A stretch of 64,000 nt of DNA from Cupriavidus sp. P-10 (GTDB lineage: Bacteria; Pseudomonadota; Gammaproteobacteria; Burkholderiales; Burkholderiaceae): the NCBI RefSeq assembly GCF_003402535.2, contig NZ_AP025172.1, positions 1,488,001-1,552,000 of the forward strand. Direction: 5' to 3'. The notes under the pieces were generated by a model. The model saw only the letters and a list, made by a program, of their open reading frames with translations. It searched no databases and had not been told where the DNA came from. Below, piece by piece: positions 30,582 to 43,062 of the stretch. The translations under genes and the position numbers were made by a program. Position 1 is the stretch's first letter, and every line of letters starts with the position of its first letter.

Positions 30582-30824
30582 GATGTCTCCTTCCTGTGAT
30601 GGGAAGAGGCATTGTCGTTAGCGTCGCCATCACCGGCAATTCGCCAGTTTGCATGGGGCCATCACGAATCGATATGACCCACAGCGGCACCGCCCGATTC
30701 GCCCTGGCACGGTGCCGGCGTTCGGTCTGGCCGCGATCGGGCGACCAAGATGGGTAACAAAGGAAGGAGTTTGATAGAATTTTTCTTGGAAGCTTGCAGT
30801 GAAAGCTAAGTGAGAACTCCGCTC

Positions 30825-31367
30825 ATGGCGACGACATCCGGAAACAAGACACTGACGATCACGAAACCGGCCTGCCTGATCGATGGCTCAGACCGCGCGT
30901 TTCGGCACCTTGTGAATGGCCTGCTGCCGTTTGCTGCGCGTCTACTGTCGGTGCGCGACGGATTTGGCAGTCTGATCGGCCTGACGGGGGTTCAGTACTC
31001 GCTCCTTCGGTCGATATCCCACCTGTCTCAAGCAGGCGAGGTGACGGTAAACCAATTGGGCGACCATCTTCATTTAAGCGGCCCCTTTGTTACTATCGAG
31101 ACCAACAAGCTGAAGGAGCTTGGCCTGATCGAGAAGAAGGCACACCCGGAAGACAAGCGCAAGATGCGGCTCACCATGACCGGGCCAGGATCAAAACTAC
31201 TTGGTGAATTGCTGCCCGTGCAGCAGCAGATCAATGACGTGCTGTTCGATGGCATCACCCGGTCCGAGTTCAAGGTGCTCTGCTCCGTTGTTGACCGGCT
31301 CGTCGAAAATGGCGACCGCGCCGCGCTTGATCTGGAACATTTGAAAGCCCGTAGACAAAAAAGCTAG
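30825..31367 (+). CDS. MarR-family transcriptional regulator, paralogue 1
   Basis: 180 aa from the ATG at 30825 (a GTG at 30810 is in frame). The winged helix is clear: GEVTVNQLGDHLHLSGPFVTIETNKLKELGLIEKKAHPEDKRKMRLTMT. It is strongly similar over its length to the protein at 38186, sharing CLxDGSDRxFRHLVNGLLPFAARLLSVRDGFG and the C-terminal SEFKVLCSVxDRLVxNGDRAAxDLEHLxARR. The two genes border the HpaB/amidase module. It is convergent with the MFS gene and likely controls the transporter and monooxygenase promoters. Confidence 0.88.
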   Translation: MATTSGNKTLTITKPACLIDGSDRAFRHLVNGLLPFAARLLSVRDGFGSLIGLTGVQYSLLRSISHLSQAGEVTVNQLGDHLHLSGPFVTIETNKLKELGLIEKKAHPEDKRKMRLTMTGPGSKLLGELLPVQQQINDVLFDGITRSEFKVLCSVVDRLVENGDRAALDLEHLKARRQKS

Positions 31368-31505: not shown

Positions 31506-32888
31506 TTACTGGCTCAAGATTGTCGTCTGCTTGCCGGCGACGCCGCCTTGGAAAGCCTCGCCCTTCCTGCTTCCAGGACTGCCCGAAGCGCAGCGCCCGT
31601 GATCTACCAAGGCGATGCTGATCATGGCTACGAGGGCGGGCAGAGCGATTGCCAAGAAATTCTGCTGCAACGGCAGATGCATCCCGACCAGGGTGCCAAT
31701 CGCAATCGGTGCAAGAATTGCACCGCTGCGACCGACTCCCGACGCCCAGCCGATCCCTGTGGAGCGTACGGCCATCGGGTAGAACTGCCCGACGTAGGCA
31801 TATGCCAGGATCTGCGTGCCGATGGTGGTGGCGCCGGCCATACCAACCAGGAAATAGACCACCTCGATGGGCGCCTTGTAGCCCAGCATCGAAATCGACA
31901 CCGCAGCCAGTGCAAAGAAGGCCATCAATACATACTTGATGTGAAAGCGGTCGGCCAACCAACCACCACCGATGGCTCCAAAGATTGCGCCGAAGTTGAG
32001 CACCAAGACAAAGGTCAGGGCAGAACCCAGGCTGTACCCAGCGGTGGCCATCAGCTTGGCAAGCCAGGAGCTGAGGGCATAGACCATGAACATGCACATG
32101 AAAAACGATGTCCAGAACATGGCGGTACTAAAGCCCCGCCCTTCCTGGAACAGGTGACGAATCGGTGCCTCGTCTGCCTTGTCTTGCGCCGGCAGCACGA
32201 ATCGATCATCTGCCTGTGGCCGGTAGCTGGGTTCGATCCTCGCGACCGTGCTGCGCAGTTCGTCAAACCGGCCTGCTTTGATCAGGAACGGCATTGATTC
32301 AGGCAACGACTTGAGGACAAACGGGATCAAGAGCACCGGCAGGCCAGCGGCGACGAAGACAGATTGCCACCCGTAGGTTTCGATCAGGCCTTTGCCAAGG
32401 ATCGCTGCCAGGACGCCTCCGACCGCGTAGCCGCTGAACATCAGGGTGACCATCGTGCTGCGGATGCGCTTTGGTGAATACTCCGTCATCTGCGCTACCA
32501 CGTTGGGCATGACCCCACCGATGCCCAAACCGGCAAGGAAGCGGGTAATGCTGAAGAGTACCGGATCGCTGGTAAAACCAGCCGCGGCGGTGAAGATGCT
32601 AAACAGTGCGATGCAAATCGCGATGGCGCGGCGGCGGCTGATTCGATCCGCGACCGTGCCGAGGAAGATGGCACCAATCATCATTCCGAAGAGTGCCGAG
32701 CTGACCATGAATCCGGCACTTGTTGAATCGACACCCATGTCTTTCATGATGGACGGCAGCGCAATGCCGGCGACGGCTAGATCGTAGCCATCGAAAATAA
32801 TGATAAGCGCACACCAGAACAGCACTAGCCCATGAAACCTGTTGAAGCGGGCCTCGTCGGCCAACTTATGAACGTCAATGTGACGCAT
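31506..32888 (-). CDS. MFS transporter, aromatic acid:H+ symporter (AAHS) type
   Basis: 460 aa from the ATG at 32888 (AAGGAGAG upstream). It shows twelve hydrophobic segments, the AAHS marker IFDGYDLAVAG in helix 1, the loop 2-3 motif GTVADRISRRRA and the loop 8-9 motif GGWLADRFHIK. PcaK/BenK-type relatives import benzoate, 4-hydroxybenzoate and related aromatic acids. It is divergent from the flavin reductase/monooxygenase operon and probably imports its substrate. The conserved promoter block lies 168 bp upstream. Confidence 0.9.
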   Translation of the reverse strand: MRHIDVHKLADEARFNRFHGLVLFWCALIIIFDGYDLAVAGIALPSIMKDMGVDSTSAGFMVSSALFGMMIGAIFLGTVADRISRRRAIAICIALFSIFTAAAGFTSDPVLFSITRFLAGLGIGGVMPNVVAQMTEYSPKRIRSTMVTLMFSGYAVGGVLAAILGKGLIETYGWQSVFVAAGLPVLLIPFVLKSLPESMPFLIKAGRFDELRSTVARIEPSYRPQADDRFVLPAQDKADEAPIRHLFQEGRGFSTAMFWTSFFMCMFMVYALSSWLAKLMATAGYSLGSALTFVLVLNFGAIFGAIGGGWLADRFHIKYVLMAFFALAAVSISMLGYKAPIEVVYFLVGMAGATTIGTQILAYAYVGQFYPMAVRSTGIGWASGVGRSGAILAPIAIGTLVGMHLPLQQNFLAIALPALVAMISIALVDHGRCASGSPGSRKGEAFQGGVAGKQTTILSQ

Positions 32889-33014
32889 TGCTTCTCTCCT
32901 TGGTGCGTTCCGCACAGATAAAGAATGCCTACCTAGCTTCTTGCGGCAGGTACTTTTGATGATGACCACAGGGCGCTTTTACTAGTTTTAATACGTAACT
33001 TTCAAAGCTTTTAA

Positions 33015-33069
33015 ACTTCCGTAAAATATAGGTCACGACTGAGATGGATACATAGGGGAGAAACCCTAA
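33015..33069 (-). promoter_or_regulatory. Shared control element upstream of the AAHS transporter (copy A)
   Basis: This lies in the 466-bp gap between the divergent transporter and flavin reductase genes. Plus-strand ACTTCCGTAAAATATAG (33015-33031) and GGGAGAAACCCTAA (33056-33069) recur at 43008 and 43049, with the same 41-bp offset and unrelated sequence between. On the minus strand the first block gives a -10-like TATATT and the second would be an upstream operator. A related AGGGTTTCCACC at 33247-33258 faces the flavin reductase gene. The rest of the gap shows no gene. Confidence 0.65.
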
Positions 33070-33354
33070 GAGCCCCCCGGGTCCATCCGTTGGGCGTGTA
33101 CGGACTCTGCCGAGCATTCAGCACGCGGCAACCGCCCCCTCCATTCCCCGAACGCCGCCGCGCCGGCGTAGCCGCTCCGACCGCCTTCCCAATCGTTGTT
33201 TGCGGCCGTTCAACGCCGCTGCAGCGCATCCGCGCAAGCTCTCTTCAGGGTTTCCACCAACTTGAACGCCGCGCAAATCTAACGTTCAATCAAAACTAAT
33301 TTACAAAGCTATTCTTCAAAGTAGCACATGGGTGGAACAAACTTAGGAGTTGTG

Positions 33355-33885
33355 ATGGCTGAGTCATCTGTCGATCGCGGCGTCGAATCAGACGCCGAGG
33401 CGCAGCGCCGCTTCAGAAATGCGCTGGCAATGTTCGCGACGGGCGTGGCAGTGATTACGGCGCCCCGGGCGGAAGGCGCGCCCGTCGGCATCACGGTGGC
33501 GTCGTTTAATTCGGTATCGCTGGATCCGCCCTTGGTTCTCTTCTCGGTGGACCGGCGTTGCCTGAGCCTTCCTGACCTGCACGGCGCGCGGCGCTACGCC
33601 GTCAACGTGCTCGCCGAGGCGCAGCGGGATATCTCGAACCGCTTCGCCAAGGCCAACACCGGCAAGTGGGACGGAATCGACTTCGCCTCCGACGGCGGCG
33701 ACCACGTACTGCTGCCGGATGCGCTGGCTACCTTCGAGTGCGAGCCCTATGCGCAGCACGATGGGGGCGACCACGTCATCTTCATCGGCCGGGTGGTGCG
33801 TCACCAAGCCCGCCATGACGGCAGGCCTCTCATCTTCTTCGGCGGCAAGTACCGGGCTTTGGAAGACAGCCGGGTAGCGGCCTAG
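33355..33885 (+). CDS. Flavin reductase (HpaC-type) of a two-component monooxygenase
   Basis: 176 aa from the ATG at 33355, which has TAGGAG upstream; a start at 33328 is in frame but less likely. The FMN-binding split-barrel fold is shown by FATGVAVITA, PVGITVASFNSVSLDPPLVLFSVDR and RYAVNVLAEAQ, with the GDHVIFIGRVV strand. It should reduce FAD or FMN with NAD(P)H and hand it to the oxygenase encoded 36 bp downstream. Confidence 0.92.
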   Translation: MAESSVDRGVESDAEAQRRFRNALAMFATGVAVITAPRAEGAPVGITVASFNSVSLDPPLVLFSVDRRCLSLPDLHGARRYAVNVLAEAQRDISNRFAKANTGKWDGIDFASDGGDHVLLPDALATFECEPYAQHDGGDHVIFIGRVVRHQARHDGRPLIFFGGKYRALEDSRVAA

Positions 33886-33921
33886 ATCCACAACAACTGG
33901 CAAACAGGACAGGAGCAAAAC

Positions 33922-35406
33922 ATGATCAAGAACGGCAACCAGCACATCGCCATGCTGCGCGATGGGCGCGAAGTGTACCTCGATGGCAAGCGCGTCACCG
34001 ACGTCACGGCGCACCCCGCCTTCCGCAACTCGATCCGCAGCTACGCCAATCTCTATGACTTCCAGGCGCGGCCCGAGAACGTCGACAAGATGACCTTCCA
34101 GCCGGCAGGCGGCGACCGGCGCGTCAGCCGCATCTGGGAGCTTCCCACCAGCTACAACGAACTGGTCGGGCGCCGCGAGATGCTGGAAGCCTGGACCGCC
34201 CTGCACTACGGCTTCATGGGCCGCTCGCCTGATCATGTCGCGTCCTGCATCTCCGGCATGTACATGGGGATAGAAGTGTTCGAGCAGGCCGACCCGGCAC
34301 GCGCCGGCGCCTTGCGCGACTACTACCGCTATGCCCGCGACAACGACCTGTTCCTCACCTATGTGATCGTCAACCCGCAGGCCAACCAGGCCAAGGCCGC
34401 GCACGAGCAGGAAGACAAGTACCTGGCGGTGGGCATCGTCGACCAGGACGCGGAAGGCATTACCGTGCGCGGCGCCAAGATGCTCGCCACCAGCGGCATC
34501 ATGGCCAACGAGGTCTTCTGCAGCTGCATCCAGCCGCTGCGCGAGGGCGACGAGATGTACGCGCTGTCCTTCGCGGTGCCGATGAACACCAAGGGCCTGA
34601 AGGTAATGTCGCGCAAGTCCTACGAGGCCAGCGCCACCTCGGTCTTCGACAACCCGCTGGCCAGCCGCTTCGACGAGAACGATGCGGTGCTCTACTTCGA
34701 CGACGTCAAGGTGCCGTGGGAGCGGATCTTCGTCGCGGGCGACGTCGGCATGTGCGCAAAGCAGTTCCATGCCACGCCGGCGCATGTGTACCAGAACTAC
34801 CAGTGCCAGGTGCGGCTGATGGTCAAGCTGCGCTTCCTGGTCGGCCTGGCGCACCGCATCACCGAGATCAACGGCACTGCCGGCTTCCCGCAGGTCAAGG
34901 AACTGCTAGGCCAGCTCGCCGCCGAGGCGGGCATGGTCGAGGCGTGGGTCTATGGCATGGAAGCCAAAGGTCAGGTCAACCACAACGGCTATTTCATCCC
35001 CGACCGCGGCATGCTGTACGGCTCGCAGGTGGTGACGCAGCAGCTCTACGCCAAGGTCCTGAACACGCTGCGCGAGCTGGCCGGCGGCGGCATGATCATG
35101 CTGCCCTCCAGCATCGAGGATTTCGCCAATCCCACGCTGGCCGAGATCATCGCCAAGACGCAGAAGTCGCCGGTCTGCAGCCCGGAGGAGCGCGTCAAGT
35201 TCTTCAAGCTCGCCTGGGATGCCGTGGGTTCCGAGTTTGCCTCGCGCCACAACCAGTACGAGATGTTCTACGCCGGTGCCACCTTCGTCACCAAGGGCCA
35301 CGCCTACCGCACCTATGACTGGAAGCGCGCGTCGGGCCTGGTCGACAACATGCTCGGCAGCTATTCCCTGCAGGACGAACTGGCCCGCCTGCCGCAGGCG
35401 GCCTGA
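33922..35406 (+). CDS. HpaB-family FAD-dependent aromatic monooxygenase
   Basis: 494 aa with AGGAG before the ATG. It is full length for the 4-hydroxyphenylacetate 3-hydroxylase family, with TFQPAGGDRRVSRIWELPTSYNELVGRREMLEAWT near the N-terminus, FDENDAVLYFDDVKVPWERIF and GRADHNQYEMFYAG-like residues SRHNQYEMFYAG near the C-terminus. It hydroxylates a phenol ortho to the OH using reduced FAD from the partner reductase. Relatives include HpaB and chlorophenol or nitrophenol monooxygenases (TftD/HadA type). No homoprotocatechuate ring-cleavage genes are present, so 4-hydroxyphenylacetate is not a safe substrate call. Confidence 0.9.
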   Translation: MIKNGNQHIAMLRDGREVYLDGKRVTDVTAHPAFRNSIRSYANLYDFQARPENVDKMTFQPAGGDRRVSRIWELPTSYNELVGRREMLEAWTALHYGFMGRSPDHVASCISGMYMGIEVFEQADPARAGALRDYYRYARDNDLFLTYVIVNPQANQAKAAHEQEDKYLAVGIVDQDAEGITVRGAKMLATSGIMANEVFCSCIQPLREGDEMYALSFAVPMNTKGLKVMSRKSYEASATSVFDNPLASRFDENDAVLYFDDVKVPWERIFVAGDVGMCAKQFHATPAHVYQNYQCQVRLMVKLRFLVGLAHRITEINGTAGFPQVKELLGQLAAEAGMVEAWVYGMEAKGQVNHNGYFIPDRGMLYGSQVVTQQLYAKVLNTLRELAGGGMIMLPSSIEDFANPTLAEIIAKTQKSPVCSPEERVKFFKLAWDAVGSEFASRHNQYEMFYAGATFVTKGHAYRTYDWKRASGLVDNMLGSYSLQDELARLPQAA

Positions 35407-35450
35407 CGCTCCAATTGTCCCCACCCTTGCCTCGAAGACGGAGATCAGCA

Positions 35451-35831
35451 ATGGCAATCAACAAGCTTCACGACGAGTTCCATACCCTGGACCTGGCCTC
35501 CGGCTGGGAAGTGCCCGAAGGCTACCCCGCCGGCATCCAGCAGAAGATCCTGTCCGGCGCGCTGGACGAAGGCGGCCGAAGCGGCAGCCGTACCCGCCTG
35601 CTGCGCTTCGACCCGGGCATCTTCACCAAGGCCCCGTTCGTCCACGAGTACTGGGAGGAGGTGTACCTGCTCAGCGGCGACCTGACCGTCGGCAACGATG
35701 CCAACGGCAACGGTGGCGAAGCCTTCGAGCCCAACACCTACGCCTGCCGCCCGCCCGGCGCGTTCCACGGCCCGTTCCGGTCCAACGGCGGCTGCATGCT
35801 GCTGGAAATTCACTACTACGACCCGGCCTGA
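35451..35831 (+). CDS. Cupin-domain protein
   Basis: 126 aa (MAINKLHDEFHTLDLASGWE). It has one cupin barrel: motif 1 around FVHEYWEEVYLLSGDLTVG and motif 2 around ACRPPGAFHGPFRSNGG, with His and Glu ligands for a metal. Similar small cupins accompany amidases and oxygenases and may be isomerases, lyases or dioxygenases. The reaction here is unknown. It is 44 bp after hpaB and overlaps the amidase gene's ribosome site, so it belongs to the same operon. Confidence 0.8.
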   Translation: MAINKLHDEFHTLDLASGWEVPEGYPAGIQQKILSGALDEGGRSGSRTRLLRFDPGIFTKAPFVHEYWEEVYLLSGDLTVGNDANGNGGEAFEPNTYACRPPGAFHGPFRSNGGCMLLEIHYYDPA

Positions 35832-35833
35832 CC

Positions 35834-37177
35834 ATGGAAGCCACTATTGCGGCCGCCAGGCGCCAGCTCGCCGACGGCAGCGCCAACGCGCTGTCCCTGC
35901 TGGCCTCGTGTGTCGAACGTATCCGCAATCCCGACGGCGAAGGCGCGCGCGCCTTCCCTCACGGTGTCAGCATGGCCGCCCACATGCAGGCCCAGGCCAG
36001 CGACATGCTACGTGAGCAGGGCGTGGCCGGCGTCCTGGCCGGGATACCGGTGTCGGTCAAGGACCTGTTCGACGTGCAGGGCGACGTGACCCGCGCCGGC
36101 GCGAAGGTGCTGCCCGAGCGCCCCGCCAGCGCCGATGCCCCGGCGATTGCGCGGCTGCGCGCCGCGGGCGCCGTCTTTGTGGGGCGCACCAACATGACCG
36201 AGTTTGCCTACTCGGGGGTTGGCATCAACCCCCACTATGGCACGCCGCGCAACCCGTTCGACCGGCAGGGCGGCCGCATTCCGGGCGGCTCGTCGTCCGG
36301 CGCTGCGGTGTCGGTGACCGACGGCATGGCGCTGGCCGCGATCGGCTCGGACACCGGCGGCTCCTGCCGCATCCCGGCGGCGCTGTGCGGCATCGTCGGC
36401 TTCAAGCCCACTGCCAGCCGGGTGCCGCTGCAAGGCACGGTTCCGCTGTCGCCCAGCTATGACTCGATTGGCTGCCTGGCCAACACCGTGGAATGCTGTG
36501 CGGCAGTGGATGCGGTGATGGCCGGCGAGGCACCGCCCACGGCTCCCCTGCCGCTTGCCGGGCTCCGCCTGGCGGTACCCACCGGCCTGGTGCTGGAGGG
36601 CATGTCGGACGAAGTGGCCGAGGTCTTCAGCCGCACGCTGCGCCGGCTGTCGGCGGCAGGCGCGCTGCTGCAGGATGTGAGCTTCGAGAGCTGGAACCAG
36701 TTGGCCGAACTTGGCGCCAACGGGGGGCTTGTGGCTGCCGAGGCCAGCGCCTGGCACCAACAACTGCTTGCCGAGCATGCGAATCGATACGACCCGCGCG
36801 TGCTGTCGCGCATCCGGCTGGCCGACGAACAACGTGCCGCTGACTACCTGCGCATGCAACAACGCCGTCGTGAGCTGTGCCGGCAGGCCGACGTCGAGCT
36901 GGCAGCCTTCGATGCCGTAGCTTTGCCTACGGTGCCAATCGTGGCGCCTTGCATCGAAGCGTTGGGTGACGACGAATCTTTCTTTTCCACAAACCGATTG
37001 CTACTGCGCAACCCGTCTATCGCCAACATGCTGGACCTCTGTGCACTGTCGCTCCCCTGCCATCGCCTCGCCGACGCACCGGTGGGCCTGATGCTGTTTG
37101 GGCGACACCTGTCCGACCGGAGGCTGTTGGCTATCGGGATGGGCATCGAGGCGGTATTGCGGCGCGAACGTCGGTAG
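35834..37177 (+). CDS. Amidase signature family hydrolase
   Basis: 447 aa. The Ser-cisSer-Lys triad is visible: Lys in PVSVKDLFDVQGDVTRAG, the cis-Ser in PGGSSSGAAVSV and the nucleophile in GSDTGGSCRIPAALCG. It starts 2 bp after the cupin stop. Amidases of this group hydrolyse aryl or alkyl amides and carbamates; candidates here are an amide-bearing aromatic or its ring-opened product. The C-terminus FGRHLSDRRLLAIG is normal, so the gene appears intact. Confidence 0.9.
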   Translation: MEATIAAARRQLADGSANALSLLASCVERIRNPDGEGARAFPHGVSMAAHMQAQASDMLREQGVAGVLAGIPVSVKDLFDVQGDVTRAGAKVLPERPASADAPAIARLRAAGAVFVGRTNMTEFAYSGVGINPHYGTPRNPFDRQGGRIPGGSSSGAAVSVTDGMALAAIGSDTGGSCRIPAALCGIVGFKPTASRVPLQGTVPLSPSYDSIGCLANTVECCAAVDAVMAGEAPPTAPLPLAGLRLAVPTGLVLEGMSDEVAEVFSRTLRRLSAAGALLQDVSFESWNQLAELGANGGLVAAEASAWHQQLLAEHANRYDPRVLSRIRLADEQRAADYLRMQQRRRELCRQADVELAAFDAVALPTVPIVAPCIEALGDDESFFSTNRLLLRNPSIANMLDLCALSLPCHRLADAPVGLMLFGRHLSDRRLLAIGMGIEAVLRRERR

Positions 37178-37249
37178 GGACCGAGCAAGGCCCGACATTG
37201 GATACCAGGCGCCCGTAGCCGGCGCGATCACCAACCAAGAGGAACAATC

Positions 37250-37939
37250 ATGAAGACACTCATCTTTGACATCGAAAGCAACCACGGAAAGCAGCAGCGC
37301 GCCCTGGCCATCAGCCAGCTTGTCGTGGCGGGCTGGACTGGCCGCGACGTGAACGCGATGGAAGCGCACATCAAGGAGCTGGAAGAACTGGGCGTGAAGC
37401 GCCCCCCTTACACCCCAGTCTTCTATCGCGTCGCGGCACAACGACTTGGCCCGGCCTCTGAAATCCAGGTGAGCGGCGAGGCCAGCAGTGGCGAAGCTGA
37501 GTTCTTGCTGGTGAGCGACGGCCACGAGATCCTCGTCGGCATTGCCTCAGACCATACCGACCGCGAAGCCGAAACCTATGGCATCACGGTTTCCAAGCAA
37601 ATGTGTGAGAAGCCCTGCGCGTCGACCCTGTGGCGCTTATCTGAAGTCGAGGACCATTGGGACCAGTTGGTCCTGCGATCCTATGCCACCATCGACGGCG
37701 AGCGGGTGCTGTACCAAGAGGGTCCCGTGACAGCCATGCGCTCGCCGGCTGACCTGCTAGAGCGGTTCGCCAGCCATGGCGGTGCATTTGGCGAAGGCAC
37801 CGCCATGCTGTGCGGCACATTGCCCGCGATTGGTGGAATTCGTCCTGCCGAGCGCTTCGACATCGAACTGGACGACCCGGTTCTGCAGCGCACACTGCGC
37901 CATACGTACGCTGTTGCAACGTTGCCCATTGCCGGGTAA
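37250..37939 (+). CDS. DUF2848 family protein
   Basis: 229 aa with AGAGGAA upstream. It has the typical central block EAEFLLVSDGHEILVGIASDHTDREAETYGI and the C-terminus FDIELDDPVLQRTLRHTYAV. DUF2848 proteins resemble the fumarylacetoacetase-fold hydratase/decarboxylase group in their C-terminal layout, but no function is established. It is the last gene of the HpaB/cupin/amidase operon (72 bp after the amidase). It may act on a ring-cleavage or deamidated product, which is inference. Confidence 0.82.
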   Translation: MKTLIFDIESNHGKQQRALAISQLVVAGWTGRDVNAMEAHIKELEELGVKRPPYTPVFYRVAAQRLGPASEIQVSGEASSGEAEFLLVSDGHEILVGIASDHTDREAETYGITVSKQMCEKPCASTLWRLSEVEDHWDQLVLRSYATIDGERVLYQEGPVTAMRSPADLLERFASHGGAFGEGTAMLCGTLPAIGGIRPAERFDIELDDPVLQRTLRHTYAVATLPIAG

Positions 37940-38185
37940 GCGCGCCGCGAGGTCGATTCCTTCGATAGCTGCGACCGAACGACACCATGCTTCACCAGCT
38001 GGCCTCGAGATCAAACCCACGGGCAAATCCATCCGGAACCACCGTTTGATACGAGGTCAGCTTGCCCACCTGGCAAGCTGCCGTATTGAGGCACTGCAAC
38101 CAGCGCATAAGCGGAGCCACACGTCCACTGCTTCCTGGAAACCATCAAGGCCGGCCGTCGAAGTCAGGAAGAACCATTCTCGCCG

Positions 38186-38728
38186 CTAGTTATGGTTCCT
38201 TCGTGCCTGCAGATGCTCCAGGTCGATCGCGGCGCGATCGCCATTGGCGACGAGCCGGTCTATGACGGAACACAGTACCTTGAATTCAGAAAGGGAAACG
38301 CCGTAAAACAGCACATCATTGATCCGTTGCTGAACCGGCAACAACTCGTTCAAGAGCCTATCTCCCGCAATCGTAACGGTCAGGCACATCTTGCGCCTAT
38401 CTTCCGCGTGAGCTGTCTTGTCGATGAGTCCGAGCTTCTTCAGCTTTCCCGTCTCGATGGTGATAAACGCCCCGCTGAGATGCAGATGGTCGGCGAGTTG
38501 GTTCACGGTCACCTCACCCAGTTCGGATAGCGTCGAGATAGAGCGGATCATCGAATACTGGGCGCCAGTCAGGCTGATCAGGCTGCCAAAGCCATCCCGC
38601 ACCGAAAGCAGCCGGGCTGCAAACGGCAGCAGACCATTTACCAGATGACGGAACTCTCGATCTGAGCCATCCACCAGGCAGACGGGATGCGTTACTGTCC
38701 AAGGTGTGATTGCAGTCTTTGTTTCCAT
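38186..38728 (-). CDS. MarR-family transcriptional regulator, paralogue 2
   Basis: 180 aa (METKTAITPWTVTHPVCLVDG). The winged helix is GEVTVNQLADHLHLSGAFITIETGKLKKLGLIDKTAHAEDRRKMCLTVT. It is clearly homologous to the protein at 30825 from end to end, apart from the first 14 residues. It lies between the HpaB module and the Rieske module, convergent with the former. The two paralogues probably recognise the same element, found upstream of both modules. Confidence 0.88.
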   Translation of the reverse strand: METKTAITPWTVTHPVCLVDGSDREFRHLVNGLLPFAARLLSVRDGFGSLISLTGAQYSMIRSISTLSELGEVTVNQLADHLHLSGAFITIETGKLKKLGLIDKTAHAEDRRKMCLTVTIAGDRLLNELLPVQQRINDVLFYGVSLSEFKVLCSVIDRLVANGDRAAIDLEHLQARRNHN

Positions 38729-38888
38729 TGGGGGGCACCTCAGTTTGCCGCGTTAGCAGACCATGGTCAAAGTAGGGAAATCGTGCAGGCATTCGGGCCA
38801 GTGACGGCTCTGAGCTGGATCGAGCTGCTCACGCCCACAGGAACATCCATCCAGCCTCGGACACGTCCGGGTTGCCAGATTAGCGGGC

Positions 38889-38923
38889 AAAAAAAGCCGC
38901 GACGGGCGGGTACCGGCGCGGCT
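38889..38923 (-). terminator. Intrinsic terminator of the Rieske operon
   Basis: On the minus strand a 7-bp GC-rich stem, AGCCGCG (38917-38923 read in reverse) and its partner at 38895-38901, is followed by seven Us (38889-38895). It lies 111-145 nt after the stop at 39034. The rest of the 38729-39033 stretch holds no gene. Confidence 0.75.
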
Positions 38924-39033
38924 TAAAGGTGACCAACCCGCGTCGCGTCATCTGGAAGCTACCGGGCAGACGGGCTTGTTCGGACTGGATGCGCTATTGA
39001 TGCAGGACCGCAACCCGGGATTGCTCGCCTCGA

Positions 39034-39876
39034 TCAGATCGCCTGGGCGTGTCGCAAGCCCACGCGGTACGCAATCTCGTTGTTGTAGGCGTCCGACATC
39101 AGCAGGTGCGGATAGTGGCCGCCGGCGGGCAGCCGGACCTGGCGCGCGTCGGGATAGGCGCTAACCAGTTCCCGCCATGTCTCCGCGCTGATGACCTTGT
39201 CGTCTTCGCACCATAGGATAGTGACTCGGTCTGCCGGCAGGTTCAGTGCGCGCGTGGGCTCGGCGAGCGAAATTGTCCGCGAACGACCATCAAGTTCCGC
39301 CGCGGATTGCCGCTTACCAACCGCTTCGAGCAGAAAATCTCTCAACTCCAGGTCAGGCAACGCCTGCACGAAATCAAGCCATTCCGCCTTGACGCCATCA
39401 GGTTCATGCGAGGCAAGGAAAGAAGGACTGAACATTCTCAGAAAGCGCAATCGCGATGGATCAATGAATGTATTGCCAAGCATGAGGCTTTTCACTCGTG
39501 CCGTGTCGTTGCGCAGAAGCACCTGGAGCCAGTATCCTCCGAGCGAGGATCCGACAAAGTGAGCGGTATCGATACCCAGCTCTCCGAGAAGCGCGTGGAA
39601 GCTTGCAGTCATTGCTTCCGGGTCGCACTCCCCTGGGTAGCCAAGGATCACGACGCGACAGTGCTCCGAGAACTTCAGCAACTGCTTGTAGAAGATCTCA
39701 ACGGTCCCCAAAGTTCCCGGCAAGAAGACAAGCGTCTCACTGCCCTGGCCAGCTTCAAGCACCGACCAGGACAGATCCCGGGCGACAACGGTTCTCGAAC
39801 GGGACCGACCGCGCAAGGCTTCCGTCACGTTCCACGGTCTCTCGGCGTTCGCGTCCAACAGCGTATGTGAATTCAT
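39034..39876 (-). CDS. Alpha/beta-hydrolase fold protein
   Basis: 280 aa. The nucleophile elbow GSSLGGYW (Ser in HFVGSSLGGYWLQVLL), an acid in LWCEDDKVISAETW and a His in GGHYPHLLMSDAYN give a full triad; LGYPGECDPEAM is near the oxyanion side. It could be a meta-cleavage product hydrolase or an ester hydrolase. As the last gene of the SDR-Rieske-reductase operon it probably cleaves an ester or C-C bond in the oxidised product. The substrate is unknown. Confidence 0.85.
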   Translation of the reverse strand: MNSHTLLDANAERPWNVTEALRGRSRSRTVVARDLSWSVLEAGQGSETLVFLPGTLGTVEIFYKQLLKFSEHCRVVILGYPGECDPEAMTASFHALLGELGIDTAHFVGSSLGGYWLQVLLRNDTARVKSLMLGNTFIDPSRLRFLRMFSPSFLASHEPDGVKAEWLDFVQALPDLELRDFLLEAVGKRQSAAELDGRSRTISLAEPTRALNLPADRVTILWCEDDKVISAETWRELVSAYPDARQVRLPAGGHYPHLLMSDAYNNEIAYRVGLRHAQAI

Positions 39877-39894
39877 GGCTTTGCCGTCTCGGAC

Positions 39895-40857
39895 TCAGAG
39901 ATCAAGGACCAGTCGACCGCTCAAAGACCGCGAGCAGCACGGCGTGATGCACTGGCTCGCTGCGCCCTTCTCTTCATCAGTCTGAAACATGTCTCGATGG
40001 TCGGGCGACCCTTCAATGACACGGGTCAGACAAGTGCCACATACGCCCTGCTCGCAGGAGATCGGAACAACAACGCCAACACGCGCCAGGGCCTGGACGA
40101 TCGTTTCCTCTTTAGAAACGACGACCTCCGCCTGGCTCCGAGCCGCAACCACAACAAACGACTCACCCGTGACATCTACGTTGGCACTAAAGCGCTCGAC
40201 ATGCACTTGTGGCGTCGCCCACCCTGCAGCCTCCGCGCCGTCCACGACGTGATTGATAAAGCCCTCCGGCCCGCAAATATAGAGATGCGTGTCAGCATCC
40301 ACGTCCGGCAGGCAATCCGCTAATACGAATCGCTGGTCTGGGGTGCCGTCATCCAAATGGAGATGGAAATCATTGCCAAGATTCAGCGCATTGATCTCGT
40401 CCAGGAAAGCTGCCTTGTCCAATCCTCTGCAGCAATAATGAAGCGAAAACGCTTGCCCCAGGGCGGCCAGTTCGCGCGCCATGGACAAGATTGGGGTGAT
40501 GCCGATTCCTCCGGCGAAGAGGATCGACCTCTTCGCCGAAGTCAGCAGCGGGAAGTTGCAGCGCGGGGCTCCAATGCGGACCGAGCGCCCTACCTGAAAG
40601 TCTGCATGGATCGCTTTCGATCCGCCCCGGGACTTTGCATCCAGCAACACGCCGATCACATAGTGACCGCGCTCGCCAGGATGGTTTACCAACGAATATT
40701 GTCTGACAAGGCCCGAGTCGACATGGACGTCGATGTGGGAACCAGCGACAAACTCGGGAAGCTGTGCGCCGTCCGGCGACGCCAGCGTAATACGAACGAT
40801 ATCGCTCGCTGCCCGCTCCCTGGCGATGACGGACACCTGCAAACTGTTGGTAGTCAT
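39895..40857 (-). CDS. Rieske oxygenase reductase (VanB-type, FMN/NADH + C-terminal [2Fe-2S])
   Basis: 320 aa, AGGAGA before the ATG. The N-terminal flavin domain has VRQYSLVN and the NAD site FAGGIGITPILSMARELA. The C-terminal plant-type ferredoxin has Cys in ISCEQGVCGTC plus a fourth Cys near SQCITPCC. This domain order is that of phthalate dioxygenase reductase and VanB (class IA). It passes electrons from NADH to the oxygenase encoded 47 bp upstream. Confidence 0.92.
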   Translation of the reverse strand: MTTNSLQVSVIARERAASDIVRITLASPDGAQLPEFVAGSHIDVHVDSGLVRQYSLVNHPGERGHYVIGVLLDAKSRGGSKAIHADFQVGRSVRIGAPRCNFPLLTSAKRSILFAGGIGITPILSMARELAALGQAFSLHYCCRGLDKAAFLDEINALNLGNDFHLHLDDGTPDQRFVLADCLPDVDADTHLYICGPEGFINHVVDGAEAAGWATPQVHVERFSANVDVTGESFVVVAARSQAEVVVSKEETIVQALARVGVVVPISCEQGVCGTCLTRVIEGSPDHRDMFQTDEEKGAASQCITPCCSRSLSGRLVLDL

Positions 40858-40904
40858 CGTATCTCCTCGCGCTCTCTACCCTTAGCCAAAACGAACCACT
40901 CTCT

Positions 40905-42041
40905 TCACGACGCCTTCCTCGTATCCCCGACCAGTTCCTGACTTGCCTCATTGGCTTCACGCTCTTGCTGCAACAAGCGATCCAGGACGCGGCGATACCG
41001 CATCGGACCTGCGTCGATCGCGAGCAGGGTCGGGTTCAGAGGGGTTGGCGATTCATCCATGCGGCGCTGCTGCGCTTCGATGATGGGGGCATCCTGCTCG
41101 GCGAATGCGAAGGTCCGGAGTTTGCCGATTTTTTCCCGGATTTCCTCGTTCGACTCCTTCCCTTCCGTGATCACGTTCCACCGCACAGCGCTGTAGCGAT
41201 AGTGCGTCGAACGCTCCGTTTCCGGAGTCAGCAGATGCAGGGCGAAATAGCCCGTTCCTTTCTCCTTCGGCTCGCCCACCTTGCTGACCCCGTATTCCAG
41301 AATGAGGTTGGACGGGGCATACCAGGAGATCGTGCTCCACTGGTCGCCGCGCTCGAAGCCGCTCAGCATTTTCAGCATGCCCGGCGTCTCCGCATCCTTG
41401 GACGGGCGGCTCACGACCACCACATCGCCGCTCTGCTCGACGGCGATGTTGGCGACGACCGTTCCGGCGGTGCCCAGGATGCCTTCGTGCACGTAAGTGG
41501 TATGCGAAAGATCCAAAAGGTTGTCGACGATGAGCTCGAAATGCGCTGCGATCTTCAGGTAACCCGGATTCGTGACGTGCTCTTCGGGACTCGTGTCGAG
41601 GCAGCCATAGTCCGGAATCGCGGCGGGATCTGCGACACGGTCACCCATCCAGATCCAGATGAAGCCATGCTTCTCGACGACGGGAAATGACCGTAGATGC
41701 GCCGCATTCGGGATGGTGCAGTTGCCATGCGGATTTTTGACACATGCGCCAGTCGCGCCAAATTCGAGCCCATGGTAGGGACACTGGACACGGTCGCCTG
41801 GCAAGAGCTTGCCCATGGACAGCGGCGCGAAACGGTGCGAACAACGGTCAAGGATCGCTGCAGCCGTGCCATCCTCTTTGCGGAAGAAAACCACGGGCTC
41901 GCACAGAATAGTCTGCGGTACAAGCTTGCCCTCCGGCAGTTCGTGGGCCCAAAGACCTACGTACCATGCGTTGCGCGGAAACCGATCCGCACCTTGCTTC
42001 ATCGCGGCGGGGCCCTTCACTTGCGTAATCACTGCGGTCAT
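40905..42041 (-). CDS. Rieske non-heme iron oxygenase, alpha subunit
   Basis: 378 aa from the ATG at 42041 with CGGAG upstream; the frame extends to a TTG at 42059. The Rieske [2Fe-2S] ligands are Cys/His in LDRCSHRFAPLSMG and QCPYHGLEFG. The mononuclear iron site is ELIVDNLLDLSHTTYVHEG (two His, with Asp). It belongs to the VanA/phthalate-dioxygenase clade, which does O-demethylation or aromatic hydroxylation without a beta subunit. A C-terminal charged tail of about 20 residues is extra. The substrate is unassigned. Confidence 0.92.
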   Translation of the reverse strand: MTAVITQVKGPAAMKQGADRFPRNAWYVGLWAHELPEGKLVPQTILCEPVVFFRKEDGTAAAILDRCSHRFAPLSMGKLLPGDRVQCPYHGLEFGATGACVKNPHGNCTIPNAAHLRSFPVVEKHGFIWIWMGDRVADPAAIPDYGCLDTSPEEHVTNPGYLKIAAHFELIVDNLLDLSHTTYVHEGILGTAGTVVANIAVEQSGDVVVVSRPSKDAETPGMLKMLSGFERGDQWSTISWYAPSNLILEYGVSKVGEPKEKGTGYFALHLLTPETERSTHYRYSAVRWNVITEGKESNEEIREKIGKLRTFAFAEQDAPIIEAQQRRMDESPTPLNPTLLAIDAGPMRYRRVLDRLLQQEREANEASQELVGDTRKAS

Positions 42042-42110
42042 CTCAAAGCTCCGAATCAATCTTCAGTGGATTGGGGAACGCCAGAACCGATGTCCCGGCG
42101 AGCGCCTGCC

Positions 42111-42869
42111 TCAGTACATGATGTGTCCGCCGTCAACGACGATGGTCTGCCCCGACACGAATCCCGAGAGATCCGAAACCAGATAGATTGCCGTCCCGAC
42201 CAGATCGTCAGGACGCTGCTCACGCGACAGCGCACGAGCCTTGAGGAAAGATTGCTGCCACTCTGCCGGTCGATCCTTGGTAGCGTCGGTCAGCACGAAG
42301 CCCGGTGCAATACAGTTCACCCGCACACCATGCTGCCCGACTTCCTTGGCCAGCCCCTTGGTCATCGCCAATACGGCGCCCTTGCTCGACACGTACTGCA
42401 GATAACCCGGCTGACCGGCGATGGCGACCACGGAGGCGATGTTCACAATGGCGCCCCGGCGCTGCTCGCGCATAGCGGGCAGCACAGCCTTGCAGCATTG
42501 CCAGACGCCTTTCACGTTCACGGCAAAGATGCGGTCCCACTGAGCAGGATCAATCTCTTCGAAGCTGGTGAGTTTGACTTCGCGGAAGTAGGCGGCGTTG
42601 TTGACCAGTCCATCGATGGCGCCGAACTTCTCCAGTGCCGCTTTGGCCATATCCCGCACTGACTGCTCGTCGCTTACGTCTGTCCGAACGTAGAGCGCGT
42701 CGCAATTCATGCCTTTGAGGCCCTCCATGGTTTCATCCGCGGCGCCCATGTCTGCAACCACAACATTTGCCCCTTGCGAAGCGAGGCCATAGGCAAAGGC
42801 CTGCCCGATACCCGTCGCCGCGCCGGTGACAATGACGGTACGACCGTCCAAAAGATTCGCATTGCTCAT
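42111..42869 (-). CDS. Classical short-chain dehydrogenase/reductase
   Basis: 252 aa from the ATG at 42869, with AAGGAGG upstream. All classical SDR elements are intact: TGAATGIGQAFAYG, NNAA, catalytic Ser in IVNIASVVAIAG and Tyr/Lys in QYVSSKGAV. It is the first gene of the Rieske operon. It could oxidise a cis-dihydrodiol or a hydroxymethyl/aldehyde intermediate made by the oxygenase. Its promoter contains the element shared with the AAHS transporter. Confidence 0.9.
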   Translation of the reverse strand: MSNANLLDGRTVIVTGAATGIGQAFAYGLASQGANVVVADMGAADETMEGLKGMNCDALYVRTDVSDEQSVRDMAKAALEKFGAIDGLVNNAAYFREVKLTSFEEIDPAQWDRIFAVNVKGVWQCCKAVLPAMREQRRGAIVNIASVVAIAGQPGYLQYVSSKGAVLAMTKGLAKEVGQHGVRVNCIAPGFVLTDATKDRPAEWQQSFLKARALSREQRPDDLVGTAIYLVSDLSGFVSGQTIVVDGGHIMY

Positions 42870-43007
42870 GTCCAACCTCCTTAGTCGAAGTCTGATTTCT
42901 TCCGTGCCGTCGCTGAAGTGACACCATGTTCCTGACGGCTTTGAACAGTGACGGTCGTAGTGCTTCTTACGTATCACCAAGATATACTTAATAAAAATAG
43001 CTTGGTA

Positions 43008-43062
43008 ACTTACGTAAAAATATAGCTAGTGCCTCGGCCACTGTCCATGGGAGAAACCCTAA
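43008..43062 (-). promoter_or_regulatory. Shared control element upstream of the SDR-Rieske operon (copy B)
   Basis: Plus-strand ACTTACGTAAAAATATAG (43008-43025) and GGGAGAAACCCTAA (43049-43062), 41 bp from start to start, match copy A at 33015-33069. On the minus strand TATATT serves as -10, and TGGACA, 17 nt upstream, is a plausible -35. The second block sits just upstream of that -35. The start codon at 42869 is 180 bp downstream of the second block. The 42870-43235 gap has no gene. Confidence 0.68.

Follow-up and report, generated by a model that had tools for sequence, protein, structure and literature searches.

Two sets of genes for aromatic compounds lie side by side in the genome of the soil bacterium Cupriavidus sp. 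P-10, and the question raised by this locus is whether they are switched on together. The stretch analysed, called the window throughout, comprises 64,000 nucleotides (NZ_AP025172.1, positions 1,488,001 to 1,552,000). It harbors module A, with an AAHS-like transporter gene and a flavin reductase–HpaB operon, and module B, an SDR–Rieske operon, along with two regulator genes that both pass Pfam MarR cut-offs; MarR1 adjoins module A and MarR2 sits between the modules. The original prediction called attention to a pair of short blocks, one A/T-rich and one containing GGG, in front of both the AAHS and the SDR genes, and proposed that a common regulator reads them, uniting the modules in one regulon. 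We consider one regulon likely, with a probability of roughly 70%: the operons of both modules would be under promoters controlled, as predicted from sequence, by MarR proteins, with a further input through an AGGGTTT box.

The blocks lie, to the base, where they had been reported: the A/T blocks are ACTTCCGTAAAATATAG at 33015-33031 and ACTTACGTAAAAATATAG at 43008-43025, the GGG block is the 14-mer GGGAGAAACCCTAA at 33056-33069 and again at 43049-43062, and the start-to-start distance is 41 base pairs (bp) in both copies. The sequence between them is indeed unrelated (24 versus 23 bases, agreeing at 5 or 6 of 23 positions, the level of chance). The AAHS and SDR genes are transcribed from the minus strand, with the GGG box upstream and the A/T block downstream.

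The blocks are not common at unrelated loci of the genome, a pattern that the original prediction had named as speaking against it. The host genome spans 9.08 Mb in five contigs, with a second HpaB cluster on contig C2, and the exact 14-mer occurs in it at the two reported sites only; it is also present in 1 of 59 other genomes searched. At one mismatch there are three further places in the genome, where a rough chance estimate gives about three in total at up to one mismatch, and the A/T block was absent, by reading, from the 41 bp preceding each of the three. Within the window the GGG block is not rare at up to three mismatches (5 occurrences against 2.0 expected, a number reached by 7 of 100 shuffles). 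The weight of the block evidence is in the pairing and in conservation elsewhere, rather than in the count of GGG blocks.

One predicted promoter layout in both modules

Read along the direction of transcription, both blocks are parts of one conserved predicted promoter. In it the AGGGTTT box is followed by a core promoter and, close to the predicted start, by a palindrome-like operator of 19 bp. The GGG block is the upstream box, and the A/T block is the predicted −10 together with the first half of the predicted operator. The 41-bp offset follows, since the core promoter between box and operator fixes the spacing. Among relatives, flavin reductase–HpaB promoters follow one layout (AGGGTTTCCACYARCTTGAAT and, after a 17-bp gap, a −10 resembling TTCAAT, followed by CTAAGTTACAAAGCTAA). 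The AAHS and SDR promoters belong to a sub-type marked by AGGGTTTNTCCC and TATATTTTTACG(T/G)AAGT. Of 20 named loci retrieved using MarR1, 19, from 17 genomes, have the flavin reductase type; the short match L051 has none. At two loci the whole element stands twice in tandem before the flavin reductase gene (L044, 12067/12401, 334 bp apart; L050, 11863/12074, 211 bp apart).

The clearest instance in the window is the flavin reductase–HpaB promoter on the plus strand, with the AGGGTTTCCACC box at 33247-33258, a predicted core promoter (TTGAAC, 17-bp spacer, TTCAAT; 33262-33290) conserved in relatives, and the predicted MarR operator AAACTAATTTACAAAGCTA at 33293-33311. The box at 33247 had been described as a variant; it is in fact the canonical box, conserved widely, and with it the flavin reductase–HpaB operon becomes a third member of the predicted regulon. 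The SDR–Rieske promoter, on the minus strand, has the AGGGTTTCTCCC box at 43049-43060, a predicted core promoter (TGGACA, 17-bp spacer, TATATT; 43019-43047) scoring 10 of 12 in a consensus scan and kept in three genomes, and the predicted operator TACGTAAGTTACCAAGCTA at 42998-43016. The AAHS promoter carries the same AGGGTTTCTCCC box on the minus strand at 33056-33067, which is the 14-mer's opposite strand and is kept in the Cupriavidus relatives LEh25 and amp6. Its predicted −10, TATATT (33025-33030, minus), was not called by the consensus scan; a good −35 is lacking (TATGTA at 33049-33054, spacer 18), and the predicted operator TACGTAACTTTCAAAGCTT lies at 32992-33010 on the plus strand, reversed relative to the gene. 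The SDR promoter was the sole call of the sigma-70 consensus scan (1 found, 0.4 in shuffles). As the scan calls neither of the other two, the AAHS and flavin reductase core promoters rest on conservation.

That conservation has a marked pattern. Across three genomes, the SDR promoter is invariant at 20 of 22 columns from box to −35 and at 26 of 27 from −10 to operator, against 6 of 17 in the 17-bp spacer and 18 of 40 in the next 40 bases; the AAHS promoter behaves similarly. With gene groups judged by gene direction and the MarR genes set aside, the element stands at every separately transcribed group, three promoters in the window and four each in LEh25 and amp6. Gene order differs in the latter two, where cupin and DUF2848 are split off as a divergent group of their own, which likewise carries the element.

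Whole-promoter profiles point the same way. R1, which was trained on 25 relatives' promoters and not on the window, matches the flavin reductase site at 33246-33322 (56.6 bits, expectation value (E) 1.2e-16), and genome-wide, at E up to 1, reports only this site and that of the second HpaB cluster on C2. R2, trained on four promoters, those of AAHS and SDR in LEh25 and amp6, matches AAHS at E 2.9e-10 and SDR at E 1.3e-10; across the 9.08 Mb, at E up to 10, it finds only these two sites among the best 150 of 181 candidates. As a whole, the predicted layout of box, core promoter and operator is present at the AAHS, flavin reductase–HpaB and SDR–Rieske promoters, is conserved in relatives, and recurs in this genome only at the second HpaB cluster. 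What had been bare repeated blocks can now be described as predicted operators, predicted starts (near 33018 on the minus strand, 33297 on the plus strand and 43012 on the minus strand) and a candidate regulon of three operons.

MarR proteins, operator and AGGGTTT box

MarR1 (30810-31367, plus strand; Pfam MarR_2 42.6 bits, cut-off 27) and MarR2 (38186-38728, minus strand) are 73% identical, and a third paralog, 85% identical to MarR1, lies beside the second HpaB cluster on C2. The likely start of MarR1 is ATG 30825 and not GTG 30810, because an operator-like site overlaps the GTG and orthologs begin with MAT. No operator was seen before MarR2. Between the alpha/beta hydrolase gene and MarR2 (38728-39034, minus strand), a GC-rich hairpin followed by a T run is visible by eye. 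LEh25 and amp6 show it too, although it is not among the calls of the terminator scan. MarR2 may be transcribed from a promoter of its own.

The link between these regulators and the promoter is suggested by co-occurrence, in panel searches that scored few candidates per genome. In the family panel the MarR gene was found in 46 of 299 genomes and the R1 promoter in 44, all of them among the 46, and in the genus panel both mark the identical 18 of 60 genomes. Linkage cannot explain every case, since in genome G648 the sole MarR match is about 306 kb from the promoter. A partial R1 match is found near the MarR gene of G579, one of two family genomes, with G480, where no R1 promoter accompanies the gene; a search limited to the 7.5 and 8 kb around these two MarR genes gave no HpaB gene.

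The operator itself was modelled with a matrix of 18 non-redundant sites of relatives and with an operator-only profile, R3, of the same sites. The palindrome centre of the matrix yields a 19-bp inverted repeat with the consensus TAGCTAAGTTACAAAGCTA. The best four places of the matrix in the window are the flavin reductase (29.9), AAHS (27.3), SDR (20.7) and MarR1 (6.8) promoters, with the next place at 4.6. Column-permuted matrices placed four of four at the expected promoters in 0 of 300 trials and three of three in 4 of 300. R3, at E up to 10, reports in the window just the same four promoters (0.00088, 0.15, 0.9 and 6.5, respectively). The palindrome occurs at up to three mismatches twice in the window against 0.59 expected, and since 13 of 100 shuffles reach two, the count alone is not significant and the palindrome evidence lies in the ranking. 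A palindromic operator of about 20 bp overlapping its target promoters was thus found computationally, as predicted sites, at three window promoters. The operator-like site at MarR1, GAAGCTTGCAGTGAAAGCTAAGTGA (30789-30813, plus), a candidate for autoregulation, directly follows a predicted −10, TAGAAT (30775-30780), and is kept in the MarR promoters of relatives.

In Roseateles sp. XES5, where a MarR of 41% identity lies in the same cluster, the operator is found before the flavin reductase gene (R3 E 2.7e-4), lying by reading over a TTGACA-17-TATAAC promoter; the 423 bases before that gene hold no AGGGTTT. The box and the operator thus look like separable parts, and the idea of a common regulator reading a single two-block site has to be divided: one regulon is well supported, whereas the single site is better replaced by a promoter with a predicted MarR operator plus a separate box. 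Since the Roseateles operator lacks the box, and the box is rare upstream of MarR genes and altered or missing in some Burkholderiaceae promoters, box and operator are probably read by different factors. Among 25 stretches upstream of MarR genes (a 26th, L025, was dropped as taken from the wrong gene end), AGGGTTT appears in one (L033), directly before the −10 and outside the box position.

We hypothesize that, when no inducer is present, a dimer of MarR1, MarR2 or both would occupy the operator and block transcription; an aromatic substrate or intermediate would then free MarR, and the operons would switch on jointly. The AGGGTTT box would probably be a separate positive input beside the −35. 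We tentatively propose, at somewhat less than even odds, that it is the target of a Burkholderiaceae activator, in a two-input gate needing both MarR release by the aromatic compound and the activator. If so, the MarR operator would be the older part of the promoter, and Burkholderiaceae would have gained the AGGGTTT box later. We know of no reader of this box; the analysis isolates it as one conserved element.

Searched alone genome-wide at up to three mismatches, the box AGGGTTTCCACYARCTTG gives 42 matches, versus 21 for the pattern read backwards; its two exact matches are both at flavin reductase promoters. The loci L156, L158 and L182 were looked at individually. One site outside both modules (L182 1501-1518; G000:C1:3610482-3610499, minus strand) reads CTAGGGTTTTTTCTAGCTTG followed by TTGTCC, 17 bp and TACATT, resembling box plus core promoter, and hints that the box may serve elsewhere as well. 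In L033-L050, between the divergent upstream gene (a cysteine desulfurase in the annotated loci) and flavin reductase, 13 of 17 loci have TAGGGTTG no more than 520 bp ahead of the flavin reductase gene. This motif differs from the box by one base and seemingly lies at the divergent gene's own promoter. CAGGGTTG is present in 3 of 17, one of these among the 13.

Several observations weigh against one regulon. R1 does not report AAHS and SDR as full matches, and the consensus scan of 32880-33380 called no promoter. Taken alone, the AAHS and SDR operators are weak matches: across the genome, with E up to 10 allowed, R3 returns the two flavin reductase promoters (the window's at E 0.127) and no others, and when the window was block-shuffled 30 times the top score was 22.4, exceeding the SDR operator. 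The MarR1 site, at 6.8 (R3 E 6.5), is weak as well. For the permutation test, the regions were delimited only once a first scan with the matrix had been made. As to the panels, 11 of the 18 genomes in the genus and at least 9 of the 44 in the family had supplied training promoters, the counts are not independent (genomes are related and genes usually linked), and G480 and G579 have the MarR gene without the R1 promoter. Some Burkholderiaceae promoters have a changed AGGGTTT or none at all. In Thioclava and Paracoccus, the operator-like sites close to the MarR relatives have 4 of 17 mismatches, about chance, and are not reported by R3.

Each module having its own MarR gene, the locus could instead hold two regulons, with MarR1 governing module A and MarR2 module B, each answering to its own inducer, and with operators alike through the common origin of the two proteins. 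The AAHS and SDR operators do differ from that of flavin reductase. Still, this division is unlikely: the AAHS promoter, of module A, is closer to the SDR promoter of module B than to its own module's, the modules stay together in LEh25 and amp6 despite the changed gene order, and MarR1 and MarR2 share 14 of 18 residues in their putative recognition helices, as assigned from the fold. It is rather doubtful, too, that one MarR reads both boxes, AGGGTTT being a second MarR site and the occupied sites cooperating. Box and operator do co-occur in the Burkholderiaceae promoters used here, and in a Caballeronia cluster MarR is the sole regulator gene beside module A genes, except for a LysR-domain gene further out. 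The box is, however, unlike the operator in sequence, and both the box-free Roseateles operator and the single, misplaced AGGGTTT among the MarR upstream stretches speak against this arrangement.

The longer stretches that the AAHS and SDR promoters share with each other than either shares with the flavin reductase promoter might reflect recent promoter copying without shared control. We regard this as very improbable, given a spacer that has diverged across three genomes (6/17) while the blocks were kept (20/22, 26/27), and inter-block sequence at chance level between the two window copies. Each block is short, and 12 of 100 shuffles contain AGGGTTTNTCCC two or more times when one mismatch is allowed, yet coincidence as the whole explanation is close to negligible: the independent profiles R1 and R2 single out window sites genome-wide (for R2, among the best 150 of 181 candidates), and no permuted matrix in 300 placed four of four. 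The proposal of one regulon is well supported on these grounds, namely the exclusive R2 hits, the element at every gene group in three genomes and the 73% identity of MarR1 and MarR2.

Gene content of the modules

Module A comprises the AAHS-like aromatic acid transporter gene (31506-32888, minus strand; TIGR00895 393.7 bits, below the cut-off of 418.55) and an operon on the plus strand (33355-37939) with flavin reductase (33355-33885), HpaB-family oxygenase (33922-35406), cupin (35415-35831, below the Pfam cut-off), amidase (35834-37177) and DUF2848 (37250-37939). The HpaB–cupin–amidase stretch (about 33956-36500) is 89-100% identical to the copy on C2 (L082 7490-10731), against 55-85% in the flanks; at the protein level HpaB is 100% and cupin 99% identical. 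This looks like recent gene conversion between the two paralogous clusters.

Module B is an operon on the minus strand (39034-42869) with SDR (42111-42869), a DdmC-like Rieske oxygenase (40905-42059), ferredoxin reductase (39895-40857) and alpha/beta hydrolase (39034-39876). The nearest solved structures to the Rieske protein are 7qwt and dicamba O-demethylase (the latter at E 9.1e-65). Close relatives occur in 3 of 60 genus genomes, with a 45% relative in a fourth; in LEh25 and amp6 the relative comes with the rest of module B, adjoining module A. None was found at 60% identity or more among 166 plasmid records, and across 399 genomes of the order, at E 1e-100 and with the best four candidates per genome, only its own genome and one other, at no more than 50% identity, were retrieved. 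Modules A and B likely form one pathway for an aromatic compound, which would tie the scarce Rieske module to the more widespread HpaB–amidase module. No paper in the open-licence PMC literature was recognised as describing this gene set or promoter.

Comparison with known MarR systems

A MarR-regulated catabolic regulon is a known, ordinary kind of system, and IadR of Variovorax is the nearest described control. The Variovorax auxin-degradation locus has two MarR genes, IadR (MarR_73) and MarR_50. MarR_73 is reported to recognise a 24-bp site ahead of the main operon and to leave it in response to the aromatic ligand, and a ligand and DNA site were known for only one of the two MarR proteins (PMC9613470). 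The window resembles it as a catabolic locus with two MarR genes and differs in having at least three promoters with a common predicted operator, plus the AGGGTTT box. Judged by its oxygenase, it is analogous to iad and not a member: the Rieske protein matches the IadD structure 9o71 weakly, over residues 25-203 only (E 1.5e-8).

With the hpa operon for 4-hydroxyphenylacetate and its regulator HpaR, the window shares a MarR-type regulator and an HpaB-family oxygenase with flavin reductase. Membership was rejected, the HpaR model reaching 30.3 bits against a cut-off of 121.2 and the HpaB-1 model 355.6 against 480.2. The hpa gene set includes ring-cleavage genes, in place of which the window has amidase, cupin and DUF2848. 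Relatives of module A, namely MarR–flavin reductase–HpaB–cupin–amidase–DUF2848 clusters, occur in other Burkholderiaceae, for example on plasmid pNK83 of Caballeronia sp. NK8, where the promoter is of this type as well (R1 E 1.4e-14). The Caballeronia cluster includes genes for a cysteine desulfurase and for an ABC transporter of the branched-chain type; in the window the transporter is AAHS-like, and module B is present in addition.

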